Positions 20,482 through 22,511 of a DNA stretch of 64,000 nt are shown in pieces. Both the position numbers and the translations under genes were made by a program. Numbering within the stretch: the first letter of the stretch is position 1; each line of letters starts with the position of its first letter. Origin of the DNA: a bacterium (GTDB lineage Bacteria > Bdellovibrionota > UBA1018); contig JAIEMT010000014.1 of assembly GCA_019751945.1 (NCBI GenBank), positions 62,001-126,000 of the forward strand. The letters are read 5' to 3'. The notes below the pieces were generated by a model, which had not been told where the DNA came from, made no database searches, and was given only the letters and a program-made list of their open reading frames with translations.

Positions 20482-20750
20482 TTTTTACCCCCAGATGTTT
20501 TGTGGACGGAATGTTCACAAAAAGTTTTGAGATTAAATATATTTGTACTTTCGAGATTACAATCGCGTTTGGCTGGCGCTCAGCAGTAGACGCAGAGCGC
20601 TCCTGTGTGGGAGCGGGAAGGCGGGTGACGATCTTGGCAAGTGCGAATGACGGGGTGTTTCAGGGTGAGTTTCGGTTGCGATGGGGAGAGTTACTCGCGT
20701 CGGCGCCAGTTGCTTCGGCCTGGAGTCTATTTGTGGAGGTGCATGTCCTC

Positions 20751-20962
20751 CCTTTCTGCCTGCCGCCCATCCATGGTTGGCCCTCGGCGGCTGGTTTGCT
20801 TCCAGCTCACCTGAACGCCGCCAAGGCTTTCCAGGAAAAAAAGAATTAAAAATTTAAATTCTTCTCCCCAAGAAGGCCATCGAGGCGGTCCTGCGCAGCA
20901 GGCGAGCGCTGGATGCGCGAGAGCCTCGAGGGGCCAACCAGGATGGGCGGCAGGCAGAAAGG
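20751..20962. repeat. 212-bp element bounded by 36-nt near-perfect inverted arms
   Basis: 20751-20786 CCTTTCTGCCTGCCGCCCATCCATGGTTGGCCCTCG; reverse complement of 20927-20962 is CCTTTCTGCCTGCCGCCCATCCTGGTTGGCCCCTCG (one 1-nt bulge per arm). Confidence 0.85.
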
Positions 20963-21016
20963 CGAGTCGTGCATTCTTCACGGTTCGAGTTGCTGAAGAA
21001 GCAAAAAATCCCGAGA

Positions 21017-21034
21017 ACTCGCGCCGGCGCGAGT
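21017..21034. repeat. 18-bp perfect palindrome ACTCGCGCCGGCGCGAGT, copy 1 (upstream of HNH gene)
   Basis: Read directly. Confidence 0.95.
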
Positions 21035-21235
21035 AAAATAATTTGAGAAATGCTTGACAGGTTTGTGGAGAGCAATCTCTTGGAGTCCGAGGTGTGAATT
21101 TAAAATCCTGTTATTCGCGTTTATTTCCGTTTCTTCGAACGAATAGAACTATTTTCGATTTCAAAAAATAAATCCGGACTTCATTTACTAGCGTGCAACT
21201 GCATTCGCCAAAAAACCTTGTGTTACAGAGTGCGC

Positions 21236-22051
21236 ATGAAAACTTTGCATGAAAAAGCTGTGGCATTGGTGAAAACGTATCTTCGAACCGAAACGGAGCT
21301 GCTTTCTGTTTTGCAGGAAATCGATCTCTGTAAAGGCTATCGAGAACAGGGATTTAAAAGTCTCTTTGACTATGTGAGGTCGCTCGGGCTTTCAGAGAAC
21401 GTTGCTTATAATTTTATTACGATCTCTAGAAAATCCGTTCAGGTTCCTGCCCTGAAAGAAAGGATTCAAGATCAGGAGATTTCATTATCGAATGCCAAGG
21501 TCATTGTTTCGATTCTCACTCCTGAAAATCAAGACAAGTGGCTTCAGGCGGCAGCGCAACTTCCGAAGCGAGAATTGGAGAAGGTAGTCGCAAAAGAGTT
21601 TCCTGAGAAGAGCGTGAAGGAAACCACTCGGTACGTGGCTGAAGAACGAGTGGAGTTGAAATTGGGAATTTCAGAGGCCCTCCTGAAAAAACTGAAGCGC
21701 ATTCAAGATCTGGAATCCAAGAAGGCCGCAGCCTCTCTCGAGCAGACTTTAGAAGCCATGGCCGATTTATATCTTCAGAAAAACGATCCGCTTGAGAAGG
21801 CCAAGCGTTCGAAACCACTCGCGCCGGCGCGAGTGAACAAGAATCCCCGAGTCATTTCGGCTTACCTCAACCACGCCGTTCAGAAACGCGATCAGGCTCA
21901 GTGCACGCATCAACAAGAAGGCAAACGCTGCGGGGAAAGGCGCTGGCTCGACATTCACCATATAAAACCCCTATCCAAGGGAGGCCAAACGACGCTCGAG
22001 AACCTTGCTCTGCTCTGCAAGGGGCATCATCAGCTCCTGCATCATCGATAG
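21236..22051 (+). CDS. HNH endonuclease-domain protein with helical N-terminal region
   Basis: RRWLDIHHIKPLSKGGQTTLENLALLCKGHHQLLHH; no RuvC-like motifs seen. Confidence 0.85.
   Translation: MKTLHEKAVALVKTYLRTETELLSVLQEIDLCKGYREQGFKSLFDYVRSLGLSENVAYNFITISRKSVQVPALKERIQDQEISLSNAKVIVSILTPENQDKWLQAAAQLPKRELEKVVAKEFPEKSVKETTRYVAEERVELKLGISEALLKKLKRIQDLESKKAAASLEQTLEAMADLYLQKNDPLEKAKRSKPLAPARVNKNPRVISAYLNHAVQKRDQAQCTHQQEGKRCGERRWLDIHHIKPLSKGGQTTLENLALLCKGHHQLLHHR
21817..21834. repeat. 18-bp perfect palindrome ACTCGCGCCGGCGCGAGT, copy 2 (inside HNH gene)
   Basis: Identical to copy 1; extends to 20-bp CACTCGCGCCGGCGCGAGTG here; encodes the linker PLAPARV. Confidence 0.95.
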
Positions 22052-22436: not shown

Positions 22437-22511
22437 TGGCGGAACCGCCCAGAATCGAACTGGGAATAGCTGTTTAGGAAACAACCGTTATATCCATTTA
22501 ACTACGGCTCC
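22437..22511 (-). tRNA. tRNA-Arg (CCU anticodon), CCA encoded
   Basis: Minus strand GGAGCCG...GTTGT-TTCCTAA-ACAGC...CCCAGTTCGATTCTGGG CGGTTCC G CCA; complete cloverleaf. Confidence 0.95.

Follow-up and report, generated by a model that had tools for sequence, protein, structure and literature searches.

An HNH-family gene and its lineage-specific palindrome: a candidate recognition site and module boundary

A perfect 18-bp palindrome, ACTCGCGCCGGCGCGAGT, occurs twice at one HNH-family gene of the 64,000-nucleotide stretch of DNA analysed here (the window), once in front of the gene and once within its reading frame, which raises the question of what role such a pair plays. An earlier note on this DNA had proposed a recognition site of the HNH nuclease, a recombination site that allows the promoter and N-terminal segment to be deleted or inverted, or an element that spreads through these genes. 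We confirmed that both copies are identical, with starts 800 bp apart (Table 1), and the note's view that such a repeat is unlikely to arise by chance agrees with dinucleotide shuffles of the window, which yielded 0.04 matches to the palindrome at up to 3 mismatches. The positions relative to the gene also hold, whereby the upstream copy (PAL1) ends 201 bp 5' of the start codon (ATG, 21236) and the second copy (PAL2) lies in frame and codes for PLAPARV, the linker between the N-terminal domain (N-domain) and the HNH domain. A third, degenerate copy (PAL0) is located further upstream, and palindromes of this outer type abut unrelated DNA at loci L013, L018, L019, and L025–L030. The DNA between PAL0 and PAL1 (module A) has long inverted arms at 20740–20786 and 20927–20973 and recurs many times, complete or in part, in the genome of the window. 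A tRNA gene is found at 22440–22511 on the minus strand, approximately 390 bp 3' of the HNH gene.

Table 1. Features of the palindrome-bearing locus. Positions refer to the window, those of the 125-bp insertions to the loci named.
Feature	Position	Strand	Description
PAL0	20693..20710	.	Left element border; 2 mismatches
Module A	20693..21034	+	Hairpin-rich noncoding unit, PAL0 to PAL1; from inverted-repeat search
PAL1	21017..21034	.	Exact 18-bp palindrome 5' of the HNH gene
Promoter/5' region of the N cassette	21035..21235	+	About 89% identity among copies
HNH-family gene	21236..22051	+	271 aa from ATG; TTG at 21218 also in frame
N-terminal helical domain	21236..21802	+	ParB/Noc-like HTH at about residues 28–121 (Foldseek, weak profile matches)
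PAL2	21817..21834	.	Exact palindrome within the ORF, in a disordered linker
HNH nuclease domain	21835..22048	+	Catalytic and zinc residues invariant in the family
Right homology border	22045..22046	+	After CATCAT (HHQLLHH); TAG at 22049–22051 in copy-specific DNA
125-bp insertion sites	L031:3826-3972; L127:3270-3416; L136:2294-2440; others

Copies of the palindrome and module borders

A count of the 18-mer across the 3.23-Mb draft genome of the window, whose place is near Oligoflexia and Bacteriovoracaceae, gave 22 exact copies and 8 with 1–2 mismatches, a reversed-pattern control in the same genome gave 0, and a search of 34 further genomes from the family did not find the 18-mer. When the count was set against the HNH genes, 21 of the 22 exact copies proved to be tied to such a gene or to the adjoining hairpin module A, with 12 in the linker (PAL2), 2 at the boundary of modules A and N (PAL1), and 7 at the outer edge of module A (PAL0); the remaining copy stands solo within unique DNA (L015, C13). 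Approximately 14 further copies are interrupted at the centre by an IS-related insertion or by ends of it, and many copies are found at contig ends, as is expected of a repeat that breaks the assembly. Searched with the HNH protein, this genome gave 28 matches, of which many are full length and open and some are fragments. Copies at many places together with solo palindromes support the suggestion that a spreading element is involved.

The palindrome loci were mapped in terms of the modules A (20693–21034), N (21035–21816, comprising the promoter and the N-domain), H (the HNH part), and C (a 125-bp insertion). Complete copies are ordered PAL0-A-PAL1-N-PAL2-H, and across the copies the presence or absence of modules changes exactly at the palindromes. 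Locus L020 reads A-PAL-H without N and thus presents a deletion-type junction that lacks the promoter/N-terminal cassette, L017 and L136 consist of unique DNA-PAL-N-PAL-H without A, and in L127 and L128, the latter beside a uvrC-like gene, unique DNA is followed by PAL-H without A and N. At locus L250 of G028, which belongs to the same order and carries a different palindrome, TCGTACAGTACGA, the DNA left of PAL1 is fused straight to the linker right of PAL2, so that the same type of junction is present in two genomes with unrelated palindromes. "Deletion-type" here describes the apparent form of these junctions and leaves aside the order of deletion and insertion at each site. An inverted N cassette between two palindromes was not found among the mapped loci, and the 125-bp insertion alone was present in both orientations. 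Thus, the deletion half of the recombination proposal is supported by the junctions at the palindrome, whereas inversion is not, and recombination between copies extends beyond the palindrome. The core of module A, with the arms CTTTCTGCCTGCCGCCCATCC and GGATGGGCGGCAGGCAGAAAG, was also found without a palindrome at L132, L133, L135, L139, and L141 and therefore resembles a separate miniature element. At the contig ends of L018, L027, L032, and L140, a second IS-like end, CAGGCGTGTCCGGTTAA, sits in the A/T-rich centre of module A.

With regard to exchange among the copies, the distances of the N-cassette quarters from nine copies intercorrelate at 0.41–0.85 and correlate with those of the HNH part at −0.18 to 0.21, which as a sign of exchange is suggestive only. 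The N tree and the HNH tree reject each other, but adjacent segments inside N, used as a control, also reject each other's trees, so exchange appears to be general and the test does not single out PAL2; the tree conflict was thus withdrawn as proof of breakpoints at PAL2. Raw divergence had hinted at the N cassette being a younger sweep over older HNH domains, which was discarded because the fourfold-site divergences of N and HNH are similar (0.337 and 0.390). The noncoding 5' part of the cassette (21035–21235) is better conserved than fourfold sites, differing by just 0.113 between copies compared to 34% at the adjacent fourfold sites.

The right end of the homology lies within the reading frame. 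Pairwise identity among 19 copies, aligned on the final HNH motif (HHQLLHH), ranges from 0.5 to 0.87 up to the last histidines and drops right after them to about 0.26, which is random, and the same drop was seen in 10 copies from G017 and 6 copies from G024. Since the homology ends within the ORF, the final residues and the stop codon are supplied by the flanking DNA, a border found in three lineages. The HNH genes of G028 (L182–L191) have their own stop and are enclosed by inverted terminal repeats, CCCCAGCAAGGCGGGTTTGA...TCAAACCCGCCTTGCTGGGG, at least about 70 bp long. Around the HNH genes of the window's genome no inverted terminal repeats were found and no target duplication was recognised by eye.

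The insertion named module C is a 125-bp non-autonomous element with the ends AGTGTGTTTGGAAAGTCC, which interrupts the palindrome at its centre and is flanked on either side by duplicated CCGG. Its nine full copies, in both orientations, are 100% identical, whereas their host copies differ by approximately 10–20%, and it derives from a DDE insertion sequence (DDE_Tnp_1; L125, L126, and L035). The element is a recent, site-specific passenger of the palindrome, which did not originate from it. ISs such as ISPpu9, which insert into REPs, are a comparable case (PMC8450116). The idea that the 125-bp insertion is neutral to the reading frame was rejected, as one orientation holds two stops (L034).

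Palindrome pairs in related genomes

The HNH family is multicopy across the order, and the genomes richest in it have 64, 52, 45, and 36 matches. Although the linker sequence is hypervariable, most of the close-subfamily members examined carry a palindrome or a short hairpin there, including, besides the G028 palindrome, CCTGTAACGTTACAGG, CCTGTAGCGCTACAGG, CTTGTATCGATACAAG, ATGTCACGTGACAT, ACTCCGCCGGCGGAGT, CTGTTCACGTGAACAG, and others. In eight lineages the linker motif recurs upstream of the same gene while its sequence differs between lineages, and the mismatch fraction between palindromes is 0.02 for matched pairs compared to 0.38 for unmatched ones (minimum 25%). The eight genes were chosen for having a recognisable palindrome pair, so that these values demonstrate lineage-specific pairing and do not describe its frequency. 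In G028, the pair is present in 10 of 10 examined HNH genes and the 13-mer of this genome has 29 genomic copies (control 0). CTGTARCGYTACAG occurs 11 times in G017 (control 0), intergenic solo copies included, and within this genome the closest N-domains (89–95% identity) have a common palindrome and more distant ones differ. The upstream copy is missing from most G017 HNH genes and from all examined G024 genes, and members of a more distant subfamily have palindromes only sporadically, L205 being the one clear pair.

Solo copies are also present at L246, L251, and L255–L260. Those at L258, L259, and L260 (G017) have the common left flank TGACGCNNGCNNTC, which might belong to a longer intergenic repeat or to an operator. 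The solo palindrome near position 1510 of L255 (G017) lies in another coding sequence and codes for PVTLQ, as in HNH linkers. Some copies of the motif have a loop that is not self-complementary, as in ATGTC-ACGGT-GACAT and ACATGTC-ACGG-GACATGT.

The encoded protein

Pfam HNH was found in 34 of 34 family proteins, and the HNH and zinc-ligand residues C223, C232, H242, N256, C261, and H264 are invariant among them. They comprise the His, Asn, His, and zinc Cys residues that characterise an HNH endonuclease. A Y1 (tyrosine HUH) transposase was not found among the 34 proteins. The AlphaFold model (mean pLDDT 88, pTM 0.55) has a disordered linker exactly at the palindrome, with pLDDT below 50 for residues 196–199. 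In Foldseek searches the DNA-binding domains of ParB and Noc rank after other HNH proteins (probability 0.93–0.97, target TM up to 0.56, E 0.45–0.9). Several copies gave subthreshold matches to the HTH_ParB profile, and hhalign placed the HTH in the same register as that of ParB with an E of 0.057, yet with a probability of 1%; the link to ParB is therefore clear from AlphaFold and Foldseek alone and weak by sequence. Neither residues nor a match of an N-terminal CTPase domain were found before the HTH region. ParB and Noc bind 16-bp palindromes, namely parS (TGTTTCAC-GTGAAACA) and NBS (TATTTCCC-GGGAAATA), respectively (PMC7383237), and the G023 site CTGTTCACGTGAACAG has the ten central bases TTCACGTGAA in common with parS. 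With moderate confidence, we interpret the N-domain as a ParB-like reader of the palindrome.

Palindromes without a TGTA half-site (L167, L168, L194, and L195) go along with Leu, Ile, or Ala at the position equivalent to the DNA-contacting Asn178 of ParB, a trend from a small sample, whereby the window copy fits no simple rule. A PDB profile search with the N-domain returned chance matches alone, PADLOC matched at the HNH level only, which led to the rejection of a defence family, Rfam gave no match, and collection scans with the HNH protein or its alignment gave no named relatives.

Candidate mechanism, alternatives, and known systems

We consider it somewhat probable that the palindrome is bound, and probably cut, by the ParB-like-HTH/HNH protein that the gene encodes, and that it is at the same time a module boundary of a gene that spreads itself. 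The protein, a ParB/Noc-like HTH joined to an HNH nuclease, would read the cognate site carried by its own gene, once upstream of the promoter and once in frame in the linker, and the drift of the site and of the protein specificity would go in step. Breaks at these sites may then cause copies to lose, gain, or exchange modules, namely the hairpin module A and the cassette of promoter and N-domain, and may leave or seed solo palindromes. We infer binding, cutting, and cutting as the driver of rearrangement and spread; as a prediction, the recognition site put forward in the earlier note is strongly favoured by the genomic association with these genes, the co-variation between lineages, and the ParB/Noc-like N-domain. 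A counterpoint is that a functional nuclease that cuts PAL2 should endanger its own gene. It is possible, and we propose it tentatively, that this is a new class of autonomous mobile gene, in which a ParB-like-HTH/HNH nuclease would spread via its own palindrome, the palindrome within the ORF would enable swaps of the promoter/recognition cassette between nuclease domains, and the right end would lie in the ORF with the stop taken from the target.

It might also be that the palindrome is only an operator through which the protein or another regulator represses its own promoter, whereby the linker copy would be a second operator or a roadblock and the nuclease would act elsewhere, e.g., in defence. 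The distance of 100–375 bp between the upstream copy and the start codon in several lineages, the conserved 5' region, the TGACGC-type left flank common to intergenic solo palindromes of G017, and the ParB-like DNA-binding fold would fit such a role, but an operator leaves unexplained the junctions exactly at the palindromes in two genomes, the copies at the ends of module A, and the multicopy spread with unique flanks, so that we regard it as unlikely. The motif could act as RNA instead, with hairpins in the 5' and coding parts that control translation or mRNA stability and in which loops that are not self-complementary would be allowed; yet PAL1 may fall outside the transcript, the motif also occupies the outer edge of module A and intergenic positions, and the Rfam search was negative, which makes this reading extremely improbable.

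Two other explanations concern the repeat as DNA. A REP-like repeat, mobile alone or via another enzyme, might have inserted repeatedly near or in HNH genes, so that common copies would be ordinary repeats. The 30 near-exact copies, the solo copies (L015, L246, L251, and L255–L260), and the IS-derived element that targets the palindrome centre are consistent with this, but insertion at two constant gene positions, with a sequence particular to each of eight lineages, would be unexpected, as would the placement of 21 of the 22 copies at the HNH gene or the adjoining module A, and we hold such an independent repeat to be quite unlikely. That the copies are passive direct repeats kept alike by gene conversion and deleted by slippage or RecA, with no dedicated enzyme, appears highly doubtful: L020 and L250 do resemble slippage products and recombination is widespread among the copies, but neither the palindromicity retained through sequence change in every lineage nor the solo copies at unrelated sites would be explained.

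Among known systems, REP/RAYT is the closest functional analogue, although its defining enzyme and flanking arrangement are not found here. It is a single-gene nuclease unit with co-evolving, lineage-specific palindromes that are also present elsewhere in the genome (PMC2817692), and the HNH gene likewise has lineage-specific, co-evolving palindromes. However, the enzyme here is a ParB-like HTH with HNH and not a tyrosine HUH transposase, and where a RAYT gene is flanked on both sides by inverted REPs, the HNH gene has one palindrome upstream, one in the ORF, and none 3'. The gene is furthermore high-copy (tens) and the palindrome low-copy (about 10–40), and no GTAG head was seen. The likeness to ParB/Noc comprises the predicted fold and putative HTH register of the N-domain and palindromic sites of 14–18 bp, one of them with the parS core, whereas CTPase boxes and a C-terminal dimerisation domain were not seen here, a nuclease is fused, and there are many copies per genome. 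ParB-CTPase/HNH fusions exist (PMC12704722), but the CTPase fold is absent from the window protein. HNH homing endonucleases are similar in that an HNH nuclease is tied to its own spread, which here would proceed via breaks and repair, but there is no intron, intein, or homing-site interruption, and the presumed target is intact twice in the element. The DUF222-HNH genes of actinobacteria (13E12 repeat) are multicopy as well and have an N-terminal helical domain; two members of the HNH family studied here gave weak matches to DUF222, and membership was rejected with 0 matches over the cut-off in the window's genome. IscB gave the best NCBIfam score for the HNH domain, far below the cut-off, and IscB/OMEGA was rejected as there is no RuvC or PLMP domain and no match to an omega-RNA family at the locus.

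In the open-access literature, we found no description of HNH genes that are tied to REPs. If the preferred reading is true, species-specific palindromic repeats would have a second enzyme system behind them, one that evolved independently and uses an HNH nuclease instead of a tyrosine transposase, and it would show how a ParB-type reader became a selfish nuclease. The natural protein–palindrome pairs, from at least eight lineages and with several per genome, would then make the evolution of DNA-site specificity directly testable. The border at which the stop codon comes from the flanking DNA is an unusual gene ending.
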